Assembly: GCF_008124625.1 (NCBI RefSeq)
Contig: NZ_VNHM01000011.1
Span: forward strand, 1 to 64,000
DNA length: 64,000 nucleotides
Origin: Desulfallas thermosapovorans DSM 6562
Lineage (GTDB): Bacteria; Bacillota; Desulfotomaculia; Desulfotomaculales; Desulfallaceae
Direction of reading: 5' to 3'
The translations under genes and the position numbers were made by a program. The notes under the pieces are model-generated. The model saw only the letters and a program-made list of their open reading frames with translations. It had not been told where the DNA came from and made no database searches. This document shows, one piece after another, positions 329 through 11,078 of this stretch. Position 1 is the stretch's first letter. Every line of letters starts with the position of its first letter.

Positions 329-661
329 TCATAGCGTCATCCCGTTCCGGGATACTTCATGATAAAACAGGGTTTGGTGTTGCTGATTCTTGATAAACTC
401 TGTGGTTGTCAGTACAATTGGGGAGATATTAGATGCGTATTTTAACTCTATGTCCAACAATATATCACTAATTGAGTTCATAGTTTCTTCGTTCCTTTGT
501 TTAACGACTATAAGTACATCAATATCTGATTCGTCATGAAACTTACCGGTTGATTTGGAGCCAAAAAGTTTTATATCAAATAAATTATCTTTCAAAACGT
601 CTTTTATTAGCGAGGAAAACTCATTTAAAGCTTTTTTTTCGGTTAAATTTAAGGAGAACAT
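329..661 (-). CDS. MNT-type minimal nucleotidyltransferase (MntA/HepT-like antitoxin half)
   Basis: The 110-residue protein has the polymerase-beta nucleotidyltransferase signature: a GSKSTGKFHDESDIDVLIVV stretch at about residues 34-53, i.e. GS followed by DxD metal ligands. Proteins of this size are usually the MNT partner of a HEPN RNase in type VII toxin-antitoxin pairs, where the MNT protein AMPylates and silences the HEPN toxin; that role is inferred from the family. The HEPN gene normally follows with a short overlap. Here an ATG overlaps the stop codon (ATGA at 329-332), but the frame closes after 20 codons at 270 and the transposase begins at 221. The partner therefore appears lost or split by the IS. 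Base composition is AT-rich compared with the genes downstream. Confidence 0.75.
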   Translation of the reverse strand: MFSLNLTEKKALNEFSSLIKDVLKDNLFDIKLFGSKSTGKFHDESDIDVLIVVKQRNEETMNSISDILLDIELKYASNISPIVLTTTEFIKNQQHQTLFYHEVSRNGMTL

Positions 662-1995: not shown

Positions 1996-3417
1996 ATGCG
2001 TCTATTTGATGTTATTCCGGAAAAACTGTTCAGCGTCCTGGCCAGTCCCCTGAAGGAGGACTATGCGGCCATCTTGTTTAAAATTTATGAACAATACCTG
2101 ATGACCACCTTTGGTATCGAGCGGGAAGTGCTGGTGGACCTGATTGTTGATTATATAGAGGAAAAAGAGGAAAATGACACTTTCGGCCAGGCCTTGGAGG
2201 AGGAAATCTGGGAAGAGTCCATGGACAACCCCGCCGGTGCCCGGGGGCGGGCCGGGTTTGTGCTGCGCAAGTTGGAAACCACCGGCTGGCTGGCGGTGGA
2301 AACATACAGCGATTACAAGCAGTACGTTACCTTGAATGATTACGCCATCCGAATTTTGGAGACGCTGGAGAAAATACGGGAGAACCGCCAGGCCGAGTAC
2401 CAGGGTTTTGTGTTTGCCACCTATACCCTGCTGCACTCCGCCGAGGCCGACCGCCAGGGGAACCTGGCTCTGGAAAAGGCTTATGAGCAAACCGAGCAAT
2501 TGATTAACGGGCTGAAATCCTTAAACCACAACATCAAGCGTTATATTGAGCGGGTGCTGAGTCATAAAAGCCCGGCGGAAATACTGCGCATGCACTTTGA
2601 GGATTACAAAAGGGAAATCATCGACCGCAGCTACCACCGGCTGAAGACTTCGGATAACGTTTCCCGCTACCGGCCTCGCATAATTAAGAAGATTAACGGC
2701 TGGATGGGTGACGATGCCTGGGTGAAAAAAGCGGCGGATTTGGATGTGCGCCGGGAACGGTATCCCGACCGGGATGCGGCCCTCAGGGAGCTGTACCGGA
2801 AAATGGATTATATCAGGCAGTCATATTTGACCATGGACAACCTGCTGGAGGAAATCGACCGGCGTAACGTCCAGTACGCCAATGCCTCTTTCCTGCAGTT
2901 GAAATATATGTTGAACAGCAGTAAAAACGCCGAGGGCATGATGATGGATATCCTTGCGTATTTGGCCCGGCTGCGGGCGGAAAAGCGGGCGGGCGACCCG
3001 CTGCCCGGGCACCTGGAGCCGCTGTATAGTATTTTTACCCAGGGTTACCTGGACAACGGTTCCCTTTTTACCGCCCGGGAGAACAGCAAAAATCACCAGC
3101 CGGTGGCCATGGACGCGGTGGAAGGACCGGGGGCGGAGCAAAAGGCCCGGCGGCTTGCACATTACAAGGAAATGCTGGCCCGGCGGTTGACCCGGGAAAG
3201 GATCAATGATTATGTACTGGATAAGCTGGGCGACCGGGCGGATATTACGGCCGCAGAGCTGGGTGTCCGGGAGGCCGAAGACTTTTTAAAGCTGATTTAT
3301 GTGGCTGCTTACGCCCCTTCCCGGCTGGCCAAATACAAGGTGGATTTTTCAACTCCGGAAAGGGTTACCACCGGGGATGGGTTTAACTTTAAGAATATCC
3401 GGATCAGCCGTAAATAA
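1996..3417 (+). CDS. jetA: Wadjet system protein JetA (kleisin-like subunit)
   Basis: This 473-residue protein is the first gene of a four-gene operon whose layout and products match Wadjet, an SMC-type complex that extrudes DNA loops and cleaves small circular plasmids. JetA is the kleisin-like subunit that bridges the SMC-like ATPase. The N terminus, MRLFDVIPEKLFSVLASP, and the mostly helical, charged sequence match the JetA family of type II systems (DUF5716) rather than the DUF3375 proteins of type I. This is judged from remembered family features, not a search. The start ATG has AGGAGA upstream. jetB follows after 13 bp. Codon use and GC are like the surrounding host genes, so the operon is probably long resident or from a related donor. 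Confidence 0.85.
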   Translation: MRLFDVIPEKLFSVLASPLKEDYAAILFKIYEQYLMTTFGIEREVLVDLIVDYIEEKEENDTFGQALEEEIWEESMDNPAGARGRAGFVLRKLETTGWLAVETYSDYKQYVTLNDYAIRILETLEKIRENRQAEYQGFVFATYTLLHSAEADRQGNLALEKAYEQTEQLINGLKSLNHNIKRYIERVLSHKSPAEILRMHFEDYKREIIDRSYHRLKTSDNVSRYRPRIIKKINGWMGDDAWVKKAADLDVRRERYPDRDAALRELYRKMDYIRQSYLTMDNLLEEIDRRNVQYANASFLQLKYMLNSSKNAEGMMMDILAYLARLRAEKRAGDPLPGHLEPLYSIFTQGYLDNGSLFTARENSKNHQPVAMDAVEGPGAEQKARRLAHYKEMLARRLTRERINDYVLDKLGDRADITAAELGVREAEDFLKLIYVAAYAPSRLAKYKVDFSTPERVTTGDGFNFKNIRISRK

Positions 3418-3430
3418 AAGGGGTGGTTTT

Positions 3431-4069
3431 ATGGAGCCGGCGGAAGGGGTAAGTGTAATCAGCAGGTGGGAGCAATTATCCCCTAAAGAGCAGGAAGACT
3501 TTACCCGGATCGTGAACAAACTCCTGGCCACCACCTTTGTGACCAGGAAGAATGACGAGGACCGGCGGGATTATTATTTTATCGAGCGCAACGAGCCGCT
3601 GTTCCACAGCTATCTAAAACTGGCGGGCTGGACCCTGGCTTTGGACAAGTCCTACGGTGTGTACCAGGTGGTTAATGAGTTTGCCTTTAACCGGCTGCGC
3701 CTGAAGCTGGAGGAAAGCATCATTTTATTGATCATCCGGCTGTGTTACGAGGAAAAGCGCCGGGAGATCAGTCTGGCGGAGAATGTTATGCTGAGGGTGC
3801 GGGAGATTCAGGAGAAATATGCCGCCCTGCGGATTCGTAAAAGACCCATCGATAAGAAAAGCCTCCGGGAAACGGTGGCCCTCTTGAAAAGGTTCAATAT
3901 CGTGCGGCCCCTGGATACCGATGCCACCGACCCCGATTGCCGGTTGGAGATTTTGCCCACTATACTGTTTGCCGTTCGGGTGGAGGATATCCGCCAGGTG
4001 CATGACAAGCTGGACACGTACCGGGAGGCGGGGGAGGAAAAACAGCCCGAGGAAGGTGAAGATGAATGA
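3431..4069 (+). CDS. jetB: Wadjet system protein JetB (DUF4194, KITE-like)
   Basis: The 212-residue protein lies between jetA and the SMC-like jetC and overlaps jetC by four bases (ATGA), implying coupled translation. It has the character of DUF4194/MukE-like winged-helix (KITE) subunits: about two tandem winged-helix segments, with an HSYLKLAGWTLALDKSYGVY region and a basic helix RIRKRPIDKKSLRETVALL. In Wadjet and MukBEF such subunits dimerise on the kleisin and contact DNA. The frame is open further upstream, but the ATG at 3431 is chosen because AAAGGGGTGG precedes it and the upstream residues (overlapping jetA in another frame) look non-coding. Confidence 0.85.
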   Translation: MEPAEGVSVISRWEQLSPKEQEDFTRIVNKLLATTFVTRKNDEDRRDYYFIERNEPLFHSYLKLAGWTLALDKSYGVYQVVNEFAFNRLRLKLEESIILLIIRLCYEEKRREISLAENVMLRVREIQEKYAALRIRKRPIDKKSLRETVALLKRFNIVRPLDTDATDPDCRLEILPTILFAVRVEDIRQVHDKLDTYREAGEEKQPEEGEDE

Positions 4070-7000
4070 AACTGTTGACCCGGGTTAAGTTAATTAACTG
4101 GCACTATTTTGTGAACCAGACCATCGATATCAATGGCAGCACCCTGATCACCGGTGACAACGGCAGCGGCAAATCCACCATCCTCGATGCGCTGCAGCTG
4201 GTACTGGTTGCCGATTTGCGCAAAATTAAATTCAATGTATCCGCCTTTGATGAAACCAGGCGCAACCTTCTGGGCTACCTGCGCTGCAAAACGGGCAGCG
4301 ATTCCAGCGAGGGGCGGGTTTATTTGCGTTCCGGGGATATCACTTCCCATGTGGCCCTGGAGTTTTACGATGACGTGAAAAAGAAGCACTTTATCCTGGG
4401 GGTGGCGGTGGATTCCTATGCCGATAACACAACCTGGGATAGCAAGTACTATAAAATAGAGGATTGCCGCATCGAGGACGACCTGTTTCTGGTGGGCGGT
4501 CGGCCCCGCAACATCAAGGAACTAAAGGTGGCGCTGCGGGGGAAGAAGGGGATGGTATACGGCACCGCCGAGCATTACCGCAAGGATTTGCTGGTCAAGC
4601 TGGGTTCTCTGGGGGAGCGGTTTTTTTCGCTGCTGGTGAAGGCCATCTCTTTCAAACCCATCACCGACATCAGGCAGTTTGTTTATTCCTATGTGCTGGA
4701 GGAGCGCCACATCAACATCGAGGTGATGCGGGAAAACCTGCAGCGTTACAAGGAGTACAGCGACCTGGCGGCCAGGACCCGGGAGAAGGTGGCCGAGCTG
4801 GAGAAAATCACGGCCAAGTTTGACGAGATTGCCCGGGACCAGGAAACCGTGCTGGTCCAGGAGTACCTGATCAGGCGCGGCACCATGGACCAGGCCGCCG
4901 AAAAGCTGGCCCGCAACGCCTGGCTGGTGGAGCAAAAGCGGGGTGAGCTGAAGGCTCTGGAGGATGAACTGGAGCGCAACCGCCGGCGCAAGGGTGAACT
5001 GGCGGGTGATTACGAGGCTCACCGTGATACCCTGGCTCAAAATGAAACTTTTCAGCTGGTGGAGCGGCTCAACCGGGAGATCAGGGAACTGCGGGAAAAA
5101 CTGGCCGAACTGGGGAAAGTCAAAGACCGGGTTATCGATGCCGCCGGCCGGGAAGCCGGGGCTTTGAAAAAATTGTTGTCTGCCGCCGGGGCCGCAGGGG
5201 TTGCCGGGGAGGAAGAACCGGGGGCACCGGCACCAAGCGGCCTGGCCGGGCTGGCGGAATTGCTGGAGGCCATTGCCCGGGGACAGGTGCCCGGGGAGGA
5301 CGCGGCGGCTGCCAGGAAAAGGCTGGACGAAGGCCGGGCCTGGCTGGATGAAATTGCCTCCCGGGTCAAGGAAACCCTTTGGGAATGCAACGCCGGGTTG
5401 AAAAAGCTGCGGGATGAGGAACAGGAGCTGCGGCGGGACTTGGAAAGCCTGCGCAATAAAAAATTTGTTTATGATCCCCGGGTTACCAAACTGCGGGATG
5501 TAATTACCGCCGGTTTTCGCCGCCGGGGGCAGGAAGTGGTACCCGCCATCCTTTGCGAGCTGCTGGAGGTGCCCGACGAAAAGTGGCAGGACGCGGTGGA
5601 GGGCTGGCTGAACACCCAGCGCTTTGATTTGATTGTGGAACCCCGGCATTTCAATTTTGCCCTGGGGTTATACGAGCGATACAAGAGGGAACACAATATT
5701 TCCGGGGTGGGCCTGGTGAACACCGGGCGGGTGCTGAAATTCCTGGACCGGCAGGAAAAGGGTTCACTGGCCGAGGAGGTGCAATCGGACAACCGCTACG
5801 CCCTGGGCTATGTGCGCCAGCTGATGGGAAATGTGATGAAGTGCGAGAACGAGCAGGAATTAAAGCAGTATCGCCGTTCCATCACCCCCACCTGCATGAC
5901 TTACCAGAACAATGCGGCCCGCCAGATTAACTTCAAGGTATACGAAACCCCCTTTATCGGTCAACGGGCCTTTGCCCGGCAAATCGCCCGCAAGGAAGCC
6001 CGGCTGCAGGAGGTGCTGGCCGGGATCAAGGAATTGGCGGACCGGGTGGAGGGGTTAAATCAATTGCTGCCCCTGTGCACCGGGCGGGGGGATAATTATT
6101 TTGTGATCAGCGAGCACCTGGATGTGTTCCGGCAGAGGGCGGAGGTTCTGTCCGCCATCAAGGGCAAGCAGGATGAATTGACCGCCATTGATACCTCGGG
6201 TATCGCTGAAATTAAAAAGAAAATGGAGCAGCTTAAAGAGCAAATCAATGCCCTGGAAAAGCTGATTGGGGAACAGATGTCGGCCCGGGGCCGCCTGGAG
6301 GGCGAAATCGAATCGCTGGCCGAAACCCGTACGTCCCTGGAGGCGGCGGCGGTTGAAGCCCGGGAGGCCTTCCGTGCCCTGTGCACCGCCAATCCGGGCG
6401 TAGTGGAGAAGGGGGATAAAAGGTACGGGCGGGAACGCCGGAAAAAAGAACCGGGGGAAATCGCCGCTAATTTCCTGCACAATCGCAAGTCCATGGACAG
6501 TCTCATTTACAACAAGAAGCAGGATTTGGTGCGCATGCTCAGCGAATATGCCAACCGCCACCAGTTCGGGGGGCGGGTGGACGCCGGTGATATAAGCGAG
6601 TTTGTGGCCGAGCACCGCAAGCTGGCCCACAGTGAACTGCCCCAGTATGAAGAAAAGATTAACCAGGCCCAGCAGGAGGCCGAGGTGGAGTTTAAGGAGC
6701 ATTTCATCTTCAAGCTGAGGGAGAACATTGAAAACGCCCACATAGAGTTTGGCTTTCTCAACGAGGCTTTAAAGGGGATCAACTTTGGCTCGGATCGCTA
6801 CCGGTTCCTGGTCAAACCTTCGGAACAGCACCGCAAGTTCCATGATATGATCATGGACACCGACATGGTTGAGGGGGGCAGGTCGCTGTTCGATTCCATG
6901 TTCCGGGACCGGCACCGGGAGGCCATGGATGACTTGTTCGACAAAATTATCAACCTGCCGCCCAAATACCTGCCCGAGAGTATCGCCGAGTATACCGACT

Positions 7001-7410
7001 ACCGCACTTTTCTGGATTATGACATTAAAATTTATCACGACAATGGTGAAACTTCCACCTACTCCAAGGTTTGCCGGGAAAAATCCGGCGGGGAGACCCA
7101 GACGCCCTTTTATGTGGCCATCGTCGCCGCCTTTGTGCAGTTGTACCGGGCTAAGACCAACCGCGACAGCATTCGCCTGATGATGTTCGACGAGGCCTTC
7201 AACCGCATGGATAGTGACCGGGTGGAAAACAGCCTGGTGTTTATCAGGGACCTGGGGATGCAGGCCATCATTGCCGCTCCCACCGATAAGTGCGAGTATA
7301 TTGCGCCTCACCTGCCCACCACTTTGCTGGTGCTGCGGGACGGGCATTACAGTTGGATTGAGGATTATCACCAGTTGAAAGAAGCGGCCCTGGCCGGGGC
7401 CGGAGAATAA
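4066..7410 (+). CDS. jetC: Wadjet system SMC-like ATPase JetC
   Basis: At 1,114 residues this is the motor subunit, a MukB/SMC-like protein. The N-terminal half-ATPase has a perfect Walker A, GDNGSGKST, at residues 30-38. Long coiled-coil arms (heptad-rich Glu/Leu/Lys stretches, about 235-480 and 640-790) flank a central hinge-like region around 490-640. The C-terminal half-ATPase contains the signature KSGGETQ at 1006-1012 and Walker B RLMMFDEAFNRMD with DE at 1042-1043. All ATPase motifs are intact, so the protein should be active. Family knowledge: JetC dimers extrude loops and hand DNA to JetD for cleavage. It overlaps jetB by four bases and is followed 24 bp later by jetD. Confidence 0.9.
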   Translation: MKLLTRVKLINWHYFVNQTIDINGSTLITGDNGSGKSTILDALQLVLVADLRKIKFNVSAFDETRRNLLGYLRCKTGSDSSEGRVYLRSGDITSHVALEFYDDVKKKHFILGVAVDSYADNTTWDSKYYKIEDCRIEDDLFLVGGRPRNIKELKVALRGKKGMVYGTAEHYRKDLLVKLGSLGERFFSLLVKAISFKPITDIRQFVYSYVLEERHINIEVMRENLQRYKEYSDLAARTREKVAELEKITAKFDEIARDQETVLVQEYLIRRGTMDQAAEKLARNAWLVEQKRGELKALEDELERNRRRKGELAGDYEAHRDTLAQNETFQLVERLNREIRELREKLAELGKVKDRVIDAAGREAGALKKLLSAAGAAGVAGEEEPGAPAPSGLAGLAELLEAIARGQVPGEDAAAARKRLDEGRAWLDEIASRVKETLWECNAGLKKLRDEEQELRRDLESLRNKKFVYDPRVTKLRDVITAGFRRRGQEVVPAILCELLEVPDEKWQDAVEGWLNTQRFDLIVEPRHFNFALGLYERYKREHNISGVGLVNTGRVLKFLDRQEKGSLAEEVQSDNRYALGYVRQLMGNVMKCENEQELKQYRRSITPTCMTYQNNAARQINFKVYETPFIGQRAFARQIARKEARLQEVLAGIKELADRVEGLNQLLPLCTGRGDNYFVISEHLDVFRQRAEVLSAIKGKQDELTAIDTSGIAEIKKKMEQLKEQINALEKLIGEQMSARGRLEGEIESLAETRTSLEAAAVEAREAFRALCTANPGVVEKGDKRYGRERRKKEPGEIAANFLHNRKSMDSLIYNKKQDLVRMLSEYANRHQFGGRVDAGDISEFVAEHRKLAHSELPQYEEKINQAQQEAEVEFKEHFIFKLRENIENAHIEFGFLNEALKGINFGSDRYRFLVKPSEQHRKFHDMIMDTDMVEGGRSLFDSMFRDRHREAMDDLFDKIINLPPKYLPESIAEYTDYRTFLDYDIKIYHDNGETSTYSKVCREKSGGETQTPFYVAIVAAFVQLYRAKTNRDSIRLMMFDEAFNRMDSDRVENSLVFIRDLGMQAIIAAPTDKCEYIAPHLPTTLLVLRDGHYSWIEDYHQLKEAALAGAGE

Positions 7411-7434
7411 TTTGGTCAAAGGGGCTGTAAAGCT

Positions 7435-8682
7435 ATGCAAGACGCAGCAAAGCTGCTGCACCTGCTGTTGGATAAATTCGAAAACAGCGCCCTTTATAAG
7501 GGTGCACCCCGGAACAACCGGCGGGTTTGGCTGCGCTTCAACCGGCGCAATTTGCCCCGTTATTTTGACGATTCCACCGCCCGCCACAAGGAAAGCATCA
7601 ATGAAGGGGCTTTGCTTTTGGAGGAGCGGGGGTTGGTGGAAATTGTCTGGGAGCGGTTCGAGGAGGGCAATTTGATCAACAAGCTGGCCTTGAATCACCA
7701 CCGGTTGCAGGAAGCTTACGATTTTCTGGGCCGCCGGCCCCGGGAGGCCCGGGAGAGTGAAGTGGCCGGGCTGGCCCGTCGATACGCCCGGGGAGCCGCT
7801 CCCTGGGCGGCCGAATTTCTGGGCTGGGTGGCGGAGCGGGCGGACAGCGGGGAGAGTGTGGCCCGTTATTTGGATATTGGCGATACCCGGCGGGCCGCTA
7901 TGCTGTTCAAGGCGGTCAGGGAAGCATCCTTGCTGGAGGAGGAAACTCCCCGGCGAGTGTTCAGCCAGAGGGTGCTGGGTTCCACCAAGGCCTTTGACCA
8001 GGTGAAAAGCGCGGTGGCCCGGGCGGCGGTGGATTTCAACGCCGGCCTGCGCCGGGCCGGGCTGGAAGGGCCGGATGAAATACTGGCCGAATTGGGGATT
8101 GTGGACAACCCCCAGCATATTTTTATCAGCGGCGATTTAAAGTTTACCGTGGCGGGCAAATTGATCAATGTGTCATACTTCTACCCGGACCTTGGTATCG
8201 CCACGGAAATGGTGGGCCCCATGCAAATAGTGGCGGCCCCGGTGGATTATGTAATTACCATTGAAAATTTAACTGCCTTTTACAGCTTTATCAAGGAGGG
8301 CCGGAAAAACTGCCTGGCGGTCTACCTGGGCGGCTACCACAATGCCCACCGCCGCAACTTTTTACTGAAGATCAGGGATTTCTTCGTACAGAACGGGCGG
8401 GCAGTGTCATTTTACCACTGGGGAGACATAGATTACGGCGGCTTCACCATATTCACCCACCTGCGGGACAATTGCCTGCCCGAATTGCAACCCCTGGCCA
8501 TGGACATAGACACACTGGAAAAGTATAAAAAATTCTGCCTTCCCTTCAACAAGGAATACGCCAAAAAACTCCACCGCCTGCTGCAGGATGAGAAGTACCG
8601 GGTTTTCCACCCGGTGATTCAACACATGCTCAAAAACAACCTCCGCCTCGAACAGGAAGGGGTCAGGCTTAAAGTTTATTAA
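7435..8682 (+). CDS. jetD: Wadjet system nuclease JetD (Toprim/DUF2220)
   Basis: The 415-residue protein is the nuclease of the Wadjet system. An N-terminal winged-helix/arm region is followed by a C-terminal Toprim-like (DUF2220) domain. Toprim acidic residues are visible as Glu277 in YVITIENLTAF and the DxD of WGDIDYGG at Asp331/Asp333, so the active site looks complete. The start ATG at 7435 has AAGGGG upstream. The 3' end is unusual: the last seven residues, GVRLKVY, and the TAA stop are encoded by repeat copy 3. A G-to-A difference in this copy (TTTATTAA instead of TTTGTTAA) creates the stop one codon early. The native C terminus therefore ends near EQE, a few residues after the conserved region. 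Confidence 0.9.
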   Translation: MQDAAKLLHLLLDKFENSALYKGAPRNNRRVWLRFNRRNLPRYFDDSTARHKESINEGALLLEERGLVEIVWERFEEGNLINKLALNHHRLQEAYDFLGRRPREARESEVAGLARRYARGAAPWAAEFLGWVAERADSGESVARYLDIGDTRRAAMLFKAVREASLLEEETPRRVFSQRVLGSTKAFDQVKSAVARAAVDFNAGLRRAGLEGPDEILAELGIVDNPQHIFISGDLKFTVAGKLINVSYFYPDLGIATEMVGPMQIVAAPVDYVITIENLTAFYSFIKEGRKNCLAVYLGGYHNAHRRNFLLKIRDFFVQNGRAVSFYHWGDIDYGGFTIFTHLRDNCLPELQPLAMDIDTLEKYKKFCLPFNKEYAKKLHRLLQDEKYRVFHPVIQHMLKNNLRLEQEGVRLKVY

Positions 8683-8690
8683 AGTAATCT
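8659..8690 (+). repeat. GGGGTCAGG repeat, copy 3
   Basis: Same strand and same core as the other copies, with A for G in the TTTGTT segment. It is read in frame GGG-GTC-AGG at the end of jetD and supplies the stop. With copy 2 it brackets the whole Wadjet operon. Confidence 0.9.
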
Positions 8691-8713
8691 TATAATTGGT
8701 ATATATGAAAAAA

Positions 8714-8733
8714 CGGGCAATTGCAAACGCCCG
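8714..8733 (+). terminator. possible terminator of the Wadjet operon
   Basis: CGGGC and GCCCG arms of 5 bp are separated by 10 nt, just downstream of repeat copy 3. They are followed by AATAAAAGCTTTT rather than a pure T-run, so termination may be weak. Confidence 0.35.
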
Positions 8734-8936
8734 AATAAAAGCTTTTGGCGAGTATTGCTGTGAAGCTCTTTAATATAACCTGATTCCATAAAAATTTTTA
8801 TGAAATTGAAGGGAAAGAGTGGTTTTTTTTGAATATACTAAAATAAGGGTTATTATAAGCAATAAGATAAAATAACAAAATGCTACAGGAGCGTAACATA
8901 TATATACAATAAATAAAGCAAAAAGGAGGTAATAAA

Positions 8937-9323
8937 GTGGTTGCAACAACCAGTGCGGAAACAAAAACTGATATACGTCCTGATGAGCTAATAATGGCTA
9001 TCTTATCTCAATTGGAAGATGATACCCTAGAAAAAAATCTGGCAAAAATACATAGGGCTCTTTATTATTTAAAACAAAATCCCAAATTTGCTGATTATTT
9101 GTGGGAATTTGATTTTGATGTTATGGGATTGTCCCCTTTTTCTGATTTACTTGACCAAGTTCTTTCTAGGTTGGAAACATCTCACTTATTAGATACTAGC
9201 AATCCATCGTATGGTACTTATACAATTAAGCAGGGTTATATGAGGGAGGAATATAATAAGCTACATGATAAAAGCAGGCAAATTGTACAAGAAATGAGTA
9301 AAGAGTTGCTTGAGTATTTTTAG
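8937..9323 (+). CDS. small acidic protein of unknown function, partner of the HD phosphohydrolase
   Basis: I do not recognise this 128-residue protein. It starts at GTG with a strong AAAGGAGG ribosome binding site. It is acidic and mainly helical, with leucine-rich stretches (LIMAILSQLEDDTLEKNLAKI-type N-terminal helices) and no metal or nucleotide motifs. The C-terminal half (YTIKQGYMREEYNKL) looks like a small winged-helix or coiled segment. It ends 21 bp before the HD-domain gene and shares its low GC (about one third GC by eye, versus well over half in jetABCD and the following FAD gene). The two probably form one horizontally acquired operon. It might bind or regulate the HD enzyme; that is inference only. 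Confidence 0.7.
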   Translation: MVATTSAETKTDIRPDELIMAILSQLEDDTLEKNLAKIHRALYYLKQNPKFADYLWEFDFDVMGLSPFSDLLDQVLSRLETSHLLDTSNPSYGTYTIKQGYMREEYNKLHDKSRQIVQEMSKELLEYF

Positions 9324-9344
9324 CATTTGAGAGGTGAGAGAAGT

Positions 9345-10850
9345 GTGGGTTCTTTAAGGGATAAAGTAAATGCCTTTGTTGAAGAAAAACTGAGAAATTA
9401 TAAAGTAAATGTACGAGGTAATAAGGTCATACATGATACTATTTTAGGAACAAATTTGTTTTATGCACACGAAATTGCAGTTCTTGATTCTCCTATTCTC
9501 CAGCGATTGCGGCGAATAAGCCAGGTTGACGTTGTTTCCCTTATCTGGCCGTCCGGTAACCATAACAGATTTGAGCATTCATTGGGAGTAGCAATTATAG
9601 GTGATAAATTTATCCGTTCGCTGGCTGAAAAGGGGTTAGTCAAAAATTTTTCCGAAGAACTTTATTGCATACGGATGGCAGGGATACTTCACGATTGTGG
9701 CCATGGTCCTTTTTCACATATGTCTGAAATGTTGTTTCAGCACTGTGATGATCTAAAGGAAGAAAAAAAATCTGATCCCAAGTTGGCTGCAACAAATCCA
9801 AATGCTCACGAGATATTAAGTTATCTAATTGTAACCAGCGAAGCTTTTAAAGAATTCTATAACAAAAACATAGCTACCCAAGTGTGGGGTAGAAAAATGG
9901 ATTTGGATTTTATTGGAGAACTGATTATAGGTTATATTAGTGATTCCCAAAAAGGTTTTTTAGTAGATATAATTAATGGTGCATTTGATGCGGATAAACT
10001 TGATTATATTCAAAGAGATTCCCACTTTACCGGTGTGCAAATGATTCTTGATTTGGACAGGCTTTTTTATACATTGGATGTGATAACTGTATATAATGAA
10101 ATCAGAAGCCGTGAAGAAAAGCGCCTTACAATTGATGTAAGTGGGGTTTCGACTTTAGAACAAATAGTTTTTGATAAAATGATGCTGCAGAGTACAGTTT
10201 ATCATCATCAGAAGGTTCGTGCTGCAGAAGGTTTATTTAGCTCAATATTTGAGGAAATTTTTGAACATAAGTTGACTGTATATGGAAAACAATTTAATAG
10301 CGCTGCCGATTATCTGTACTTAACTGATGACGATATATATAACTTAGCAAAACAAAGTGATATACCGCAATCTTGTTCTATTCTAGCCCATAATTTGCTC
10401 AATAGAAATCTACCTAAAAGAGCTTTAGCAATATCAGGACGTACCGTAACAAAAGAAACGGTAAATAACTTATGGAAACTTATGAGATTATACGAAAACC
10501 CTAAAGAAATGAAGAGTATAAGGGAAAAGATTGCTGATGAAGCTAAAAAAACAGAAGCAAGAATTACATACAAGGATATTTGGTTGGATATGCCTAAAAT
10601 AGCTAAATTTAAAGAAGGAGATCAATGGGCTATAAAAAGTGAAGGTCATGATAAAGGGTATTTAACTTTGCATGATTTATTTCCAGTTGACCAGTGGGTA
10701 AAGGCTTTTTCTCAAAATAAATGGATGGGGCATGTCTATACGTATCAGCAGTATAGAGAAGTAGTACATAAAGCTAGTAAAAAGGTTATTGAAGACGAAT
10801 ACGATATTAAATTTAATGATTTTTCATACATTTGCTGTAAAATTCAATAA
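9345..10850 (+). CDS. HD-domain phosphohydrolase of the dNTPase/SAMHD1-like family
   Basis: The 501-residue protein has the full metal-site pattern of COG1078-type HD phosphohydrolases: NRFEHSLG with His78, GILHDCGHGPFSH with His116-Asp117 and the family extension HGPFSH, and FDADKLDYIQRDS with Asp217/Asp220. Characterised relatives hydrolyse dNTPs (dGTPase, SAMHD1), and several bacterial dNTPases restrict phage by draining nucleotides; that function here is inferred. GTG at 9345 is preferred over the upstream TTG at 9327 because GAGGTGA sits 7 nt before it. The gene is AT-rich, follows the 128-residue gene by 21 bp and is closed by a strong terminator at 10880. The block sits directly behind the Wadjet operon and repeat copy 3. 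Confidence 0.85.
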   Translation: MGSLRDKVNAFVEEKLRNYKVNVRGNKVIHDTILGTNLFYAHEIAVLDSPILQRLRRISQVDVVSLIWPSGNHNRFEHSLGVAIIGDKFIRSLAEKGLVKNFSEELYCIRMAGILHDCGHGPFSHMSEMLFQHCDDLKEEKKSDPKLAATNPNAHEILSYLIVTSEAFKEFYNKNIATQVWGRKMDLDFIGELIIGYISDSQKGFLVDIINGAFDADKLDYIQRDSHFTGVQMILDLDRLFYTLDVITVYNEIRSREEKRLTIDVSGVSTLEQIVFDKMMLQSTVYHHQKVRAAEGLFSSIFEEIFEHKLTVYGKQFNSAADYLYLTDDDIYNLAKQSDIPQSCSILAHNLLNRNLPKRALAISGRTVTKETVNNLWKLMRLYENPKEMKSIREKIADEAKKTEARITYKDIWLDMPKIAKFKEGDQWAIKSEGHDKGYLTLHDLFPVDQWVKAFSQNKWMGHVYTYQQYREVVHKASKKVIEDEYDIKFNDFSYICCKIQ

Positions 10851-10879
10851 ATCCATATCGCATCAAATACGTCACCCAA

Positions 10880-10902
10880 AGCAGGTAACACCTGCTTTTT
10901 TA
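10880..10902 (+). terminator. terminator of the HD operon
   Basis: AGCAGGT/ACCTGCT arms of 7 bp with an AAC loop are followed by a T-run. It is a classic intrinsic terminator 30 bp after the HD gene. Confidence 0.85.
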
Positions 10903-11078
10903 CATTGGCAGGAAATTCCCGGTGTTTGTAGAATAGATGCTTTGTCGAATACTATACGAAAATAGCGTCAGGTAATTTTTATCCTCTGCTGGTGCCGCGT
11001 TGGCGGCATGGGTGTCTATTCTATAATGAAAACAAACAGGAGTGTAATTATGTTATATTTGCGCTTCCGGGGGGCAAC

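Follow-up and report, generated by a model that had tools for sequence, protein, structure and literature searches.

Depletion of dNTPs is an antiviral strategy of human SAMHD1 and of bacterial dGTPases. In the literature that we searched, Clover, which employs a nucleotide inhibitor, was the only case of a regulated bacterial dNTPase. This system, found in defense islands, consists of the dGTPase CloA and the nucleotidyltransferase CloB, which makes p3diT; CloA, whose fold and active site are common to the Dgt-type anti-phage dGTPases, is activated by dTTP, and the dNTPase becomes toxic upon loss of the regulator (PMC12265719). The Shewanella putrefaciens-type anti-phage dGTPase is active without a partner (PMC12265719). 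In Panacea, one small antitoxin domain is paired with many different toxins (PMC8832971).

The pair described here lies in a 64,000-nucleotide stretch of Desulfallas thermosapovorans DSM 6562 (hereafter, the window), situated at the left-hand end of contig C11; the genome, which belongs to Bacillota, measures 2.96 Mb. The initial annotation, made from the sequence alone, had proposed an AT-rich block beside Wadjet, comprising two open reading frames with their own ribosome-binding site and terminator, and all of these features were recovered. The GC content of positions 8937–10902 is 0.343, as compared with 0.540 elsewhere in the window (34% versus 54%), and is the lowest in the window for that length. 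Upstream, and outside the unit, a complete type I Wadjet system, JetA-JetB-JetC-JetD (1996–8682, plus strand; PADLOC matches up to E=0), ends 254 nt before the small gene. The 254-nt AT-rich intergenic leader between the two (8683–8936, plus strand) is the presumed promoter region; since sigma-70-like promoter matches numbered 8, against 10.8 expected from shuffled sequence, no promoter is claimed. At the contig end beside Wadjet, positions 329–661 (minus strand) encode a 110-aa nucleotidyltransferase-like protein of the candidate defense family PDC-S09 (E=1.2e-20).

The first gene of the unit (8937–9323, plus strand) has a GTG start and encodes 128 aa; as read from the sequence, a Shine-Dalgarno element, AAAAGGAGG (8921–8929, plus strand), stands about 8 nt 5' of GTG 8937. 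The second gene (9345–10850, plus strand) encodes a predicted SAMHD1-like HD dNTP triphosphohydrolase of about 501 aa if translated from GTG 9345, or of 507 aa if translated from TTG 9327. The GTG is more likely to be the start, because it is preceded by GAGAGGTGAGAG and because the homolog from Paradesulfitobacterium ferrireducens begins near the equivalent residue; the probable ribosome-binding site, likewise read from the sequence, is AGAGGTGAGAGA (9330–9341, plus strand). The 3' end of the two-gene unit is marked by an intrinsic terminator (10878–10898, plus strand) with a 9-pair stem, a loop of 3 and a T-run.

That the larger protein is a COG1078-type HD enzyme, as initially annotated, agrees with its Pfam and PDB matches. 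It matches Pfam HD (E=8.4e-9) and HD_assoc_2 (E=5.9e-15), both over cut-off, and its best PDB match is SAMHD1 (E=2.6e-25, or 1e-41 using the clade profile). By residue mapping, with roles taken from a review of SAMHD1 (PMC7045340), the metal-site residues His167, His206, Asp207 and Asp311 correspond to H84, H122, D123 and D223; the catalytic residues His210, Asp218 and His233 to H126, E134 and H161, glutamate replacing Asp218; Asp137, Gln142 and Arg145 of the first allosteric site to D54, Q59 and R62; and Tyr315, which serves in deoxyribose selection, to Y227. His161 is not retained in the proteobacterial branch of the HD clade defined below. Family and active-site residues place the HD protein among the SAMHD1/EF1143-like (COG1078) enzymes, and an active, nucleotide-activated dNTPase would be the natural expectation. 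It scores far below the cut-offs for Dgt-type dGTPases (TIGR01353; 35.8 versus 152 bits) and for the anti-phage dGTPase NF041026 (24.1 versus 400 bits). The clade HD proteins of proteobacteria and Desulfosarcina are longer (806–844 aa) and have an additional C-terminal domain that is missing from the window protein; the motifs of this domain, GG-x-x-D, ENK and Q-x-RRY, are of the kind expected in PD-(D/E)XK nucleases (L010:6822-7307, L011:6960-7451, L012:6864-7343, L016:3537-4067 and L017:5033-5515); these proteins are possibly dNTPase-nuclease fusions.

The 128-aa protein had been described as an unrecognized partner. This holds insofar as no library family scored above cut-off, with neither a Pfam match (also true of the homologs tested) nor an NCBIfam match, but it is qualified by the predicted winged helix, discussed below, which resembles the C-terminal domain of DarG and YwgA. 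In Paradesulfitobacterium ferrireducens, a small gene of the same Bacillota type is followed 4 nt downstream by an intact HD gene. Further Bacillota-type genes occur in the HGW-Firmicutes-14 metagenome-assembled genome (MAG), where the HD gene is broken; on a Clostridiales contig that ends at the gene; and, as a solo gene, in genome G063. A proteobacterial type of about 134–141 aa, encoded 2–25 nt upstream of a related HD gene, is carried by plasmids of Desulfosarcina, Sphingobium, Rhizobium and Methylocystis and by two viral contigs. Altogether, nine independent loci from Bacillota, Desulfosarcina, Alphaproteobacteria and viral contigs have the small gene directly upstream of the HD gene (2–25 nt), and these nine show the layout of type II toxin-antitoxin systems, in which two conserved genes are adjacent and the small one comes first. 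The pairing, whose conservation the initial annotation had left to be checked, is conserved in three phyla and marks a single HD clade. The two small-protein types have a common position, length and N-P-x-Y motif, and an hhalign comparison (E=0.031) is suggestive; the link between them, based mainly on position and the short motif, is likewise suggestive.

A scan of the genome collection with the small family gave only three loci, a number probably limited by the choice of pattern. A tblastn search of plasmids gave no match with the window protein as query and six records with the proteobacterial form; a phage search gave no match, and no loci came from scanning viral sequences with P0002 or A3.

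Several other arrangements were encountered among the HD loci. A different 147-aa protein, seemingly an unrelated type of partner, overlaps the HD start in two Bacillota genomes (L066:5603-6046 and L070:4790-5233), and the HD matches at both loci have in-frame stops. Two viral contigs (L021:4923-6806 and L023:4923-6806), perhaps from viruses of eukaryotes, encode a COG1078 HD protein followed 18 nt on by a Rab-like small GTPase gene. In the Klebsiella prophage ST11-VIM1phi8.3 (L029:2415-3947), a 510-aa HD protein is encoded near the integrase without a small partner, possibly as a stand-alone prophage cargo gene.

Maximum-likelihood analysis of 42 HD proteins groups the nine that are encoded downstream of a small gene into a single clade (support 99/100), and the paired label requires a single change on the tree, as compared with a mean of 8.3 when labels are shuffled. 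A single paired-HD clade indicates that the two genes have been passed on together, by inheritance and by transfer, among Bacillota, Desulfosarcina and Alphaproteobacteria. Both genes are intact in seven loci. In HGW-Firmicutes-14, the HD gene contains an in-frame TAA and a frameshift, and on the Methylocystis parvus plasmid (L030:3977-5925) an IS6-family transposase lies at the interrupted HD end; the small gene is intact in both. The small gene was found alone, with no clade HD, in G063 and, in two copies, on R. leguminosarum pRlX5. In G063 (L071:6828-10291), it lies between a tyrosine recombinase gene and an orphan methyltransferase gene with restriction-modification genes. No intact clade HD without a small gene was seen among the loci collected. 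Loss is therefore one-sided, the HD gene being broken or absent beside an intact small gene in four cases and the reverse occurring in none, although the four are not phylogenetically independent and the Firmicutes MAG could contain sequencing errors. Furthermore, every one of the nine paired small proteins carries the NPxY motif, and the three solo copies lack it, having EPKF, DGRSF and VDAWH at that position. Small as these numbers are, one-sided loss combined with the NPxY pattern is what would be expected for a harmful enzyme and its neutralizer. The solo copies, on the other hand, indicate that the small protein can have a role without an HD enzyme, which counts against the antitoxin reading.

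The AlphaFold2 model of the small protein is a winged helix (mean pLDDT 82, pTM 0.77). Its top Foldseek matches are the two DarG copies in the M. tuberculosis DarTG complex (PDB 7yk3; E=0.045 and 0.18, probability 0.99 and 0.87), the better of which is still weak (E=0.045, TM 0.54, 14% identity). With VIA-align, DarG (Z 6.7, aligned over 109 residues) scored no better than CRP/FNR winged helices, which reached the same level, and values of Z below 8 can reflect merely a common winged-helix arrangement. No folds other than winged helices stood out in the structural searches with the model. At the sequence level, and independently, the PADLOC DarG model matches a partial stretch of the window protein (E=9.7e-4), and DarG is also the best PDB match of the YwgA-like profile (E=0.0016). 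Searched against 2191 ORFs, the Bacillota small-protein profile and the YwgA profile match each other reciprocally (E 5.7e-4 to 2e-3), and nothing else from outside the families scored below E=10; hhalign of the small family against YwgA gave E=0.0026 with a probability of 12%, and a PDB search with the sequence profile of the small family returned chance matches alone. The lines that point to DarG and YwgA are each weak, but together they favor placing the small protein, as a compact form, in a DarG-C/YwgA winged-helix group.

The genome of D. thermosapovorans has another COG1078 gene, on contig C4 (L002:1453-3241), with a gene for a YwgA-like protein of 171 aa located 16 nt downstream. Such YwgA-like genes (170–200 aa) are common directly downstream of Bacillota COG1078 HD genes, and this was the commonest Bacillota arrangement among the HD loci collected; the names YwgA and YwfO for this arrangement follow Bacillus subtilis and are not database labels. 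The FAD-dependent oxidoreductase ORF that begins 3' of the unit, at 10992, is kept in each of the six genomes of the genus that were searched; the stretch retrieved upstream of it yielded no Wadjet, small or HD gene in any of them. Because this neighbor is conserved in same-genus genomes that lack the block upstream of it, the block is accessory DNA, and it was probably acquired horizontally. A single-copy housekeeping HD gene, an outcome that the initial annotation had recognized as fatal to its proposal, is ruled out by the second COG1078 gene and by the relatives without the block. The Bacillota-type small family is rare: with the genome of the window counted in, it occurs in 2 of the 113 genomes from the class and in 2 of the 398 from the phylum.

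In four loci, the unit adjoins known defense systems: Wadjet, CBASS and, twice, Septu. On the Desulfosarcina plasmid, a CBASS cyclase with NucC and WYL lies beside it; on the Sphingobium plasmid, Septu PtuA/PtuB; and on the Rhizobium plasmid, PtuA. Downstream of the unit in Paradesulfitobacterium is a gene matching the candidate family PDC-S01. No established defense system was found among ten neighbors of YwgA-type HD genes that served as a control, although both this control and the sample are small; at one control locus, we read neighboring proteins as Sir2-like. Plasmids are rich in defense genes anyway. The suggested association with defense islands is supported by several independent loci.

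The two-gene unit has the appearance of a hitherto undescribed anti-phage or toxin-antitoxin module. We consider the chances evenly balanced that the block is a mobile effector-regulator pair, in which a dNTP-depleting HD effector would be restrained by a small winged-helix antitoxin. The small protein, whose gene comes first in the presumed operon, would bind the HD enzyme and hold it inactive, probably via the NPxY loop kept by all paired copies. Phage infection or another insult would then remove the small protein or shift the dNTP pool, and the released enzyme would drain dNTPs, so that DNA replication of phage or plasmid would stop; we infer that the pair may defend against phage through such nucleotide depletion. 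More tentatively, and on balance rather doubtfully, the pair may define an undescribed immunity or toxin-antitoxin class, in which a SAMHD1-like dNTPase is inactivated by a bound mini winged-helix antitoxin of the DarG-C/YwgA type; in this extended form, the widespread YwgA-like neighbors would likewise be regulators, and the proteobacterial nuclease fusion would be a two-headed effector.

Direct restraint is favored over its rivals because of the one-sided loss and the NPxY pattern. The small protein might alternatively be a DNA-binding winged-helix repressor or sensor of operon transcription, leaving the HD enzyme to be governed by expression level and nucleotides and not by direct protein inhibition. 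We regard this as unlikely: although the predicted winged helix resembles the DNA-binding domains of CRP/FNR and SarS, the small gene comes first in the operon behind a 254-nt AT-rich leader, and solo copies could repress other genes, no basic recognition helix was established, the structure that fits best over the whole length is a domain that binds a toxin, and retention of NPxY only beside an HD gene points to a protein partner. Constant pairing with a single HD clade would also suit a small protein that switches the HD enzyme on, as an obligate subunit or a sensor of phage; dNTPases of this family act as oligomers, which could hold such an adaptor, and the pair would still be a defense system. 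An activator would, however, be useless without the HD enzyme, and the small gene stays intact where the HD gene is broken or absent, which makes this reading rather improbable.

It is quite improbable that the pair is an accessory dNTP-homeostasis unit, that is, an extra housekeeping pair like YwfO/YwgA or EF1143 that lies near defense genes by chance in a variable region. Ordinary COG1078 enzymes are indeed often paired with YwgA-like proteins, one of them in the same genome, and a weak relationship links the small family to YwgA; yet the HD proteins form a separate clade of patchy distribution, and the AT-rich composition, the carriage on plasmids and viral contigs, and the Wadjet, CBASS and Septu neighbors all speak against a housekeeping role. 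That the small protein, like CloB, synthesizes an inhibitory nucleotide is scarcely credible. The same logic of dNTPase and regulator is known from Clover (PMC12265719), and the window protein has a DFD string, but it lacks a Pol-beta-type nucleotidyltransferase motif ([D/E]h[D/E]..h[D/E]h). The acidic pair is not conserved, its second residue varying from FDFD in the window to FQFD, FSFD and FHFD in other Bacillota and FSVT or FVET in proteobacteria; in addition, there is no nucleotidyltransferase profile match, the model is a winged helix, and the HD protein lies far under the Dgt-family cut-offs. As it does not appear to be a nucleotidyltransferase, the small protein is not CloB, and the unit was not assigned to Clover.

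With direct restraint as the preferred reading, it is moderately likely that the unit is a new SAMHD1-type toxin-antitoxin module. The pair is not described in the literature that we searched, a body that does not extend to the 2023 NAR survey of nucleotide-targeting effectors (10.1093/nar/gkad879). If the reading is correct, a SAMHD1-like enzyme regulated by a protein, with a small and clonable partner, would represent a second mode of control beside that of Clover, and a function would be suggested for the uncharacterized YwgA-like proteins encoded alongside COG1078 dNTPases in many Bacillota.

Among known systems, Panacea (PanAT, DUF4065; PMC8832971) resembles the unit in having two-gene loci; no small-family member tested matched Pfam DUF4065 at E up to 1. 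With the Shewanella putrefaciens-type anti-phage dGTPase (NF041026), the unit has in common an HD-superfamily enzyme, which in the unit is predicted to deplete nucleotides and may serve in defense. In DarTG, the C-terminal domain of DarG (7yk3) is the structure that the small protein matches best, and it also resembles this protein weakly in sequence; DarG, however, has a macrodomain and neutralizes the DNA ADP-ribosyltransferase DarT, whereas the small protein has no macrodomain and its presumed target is a dNTPase. The EF1143/YwfO-type COG1078 enzymes with YwgA belong to the same enzyme superfamily and have an adjacent small winged-helix-like partner with weak reciprocal profile similarity, but that partner is encoded downstream and measures 170–200 aa, whereas the window-type partner is encoded upstream and measures about 128–151 aa; moreover, the window-type HD proteins form a separate clade that is patchy and defense-associated, whereas the YwgA type is common in the phylum. 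Like Clover, the unit is a two-gene combination of a dNTPase and a putative regulator in defense islands. However, CloA is of the Dgt type and the window HD protein is SAMHD1/EF1143-like, while CloB is a nucleotidyltransferase and the small partner, which lacks such a motif, is a predicted winged helix. The logic of the two systems thus seems similar, and both proteins appear to be of another kind.
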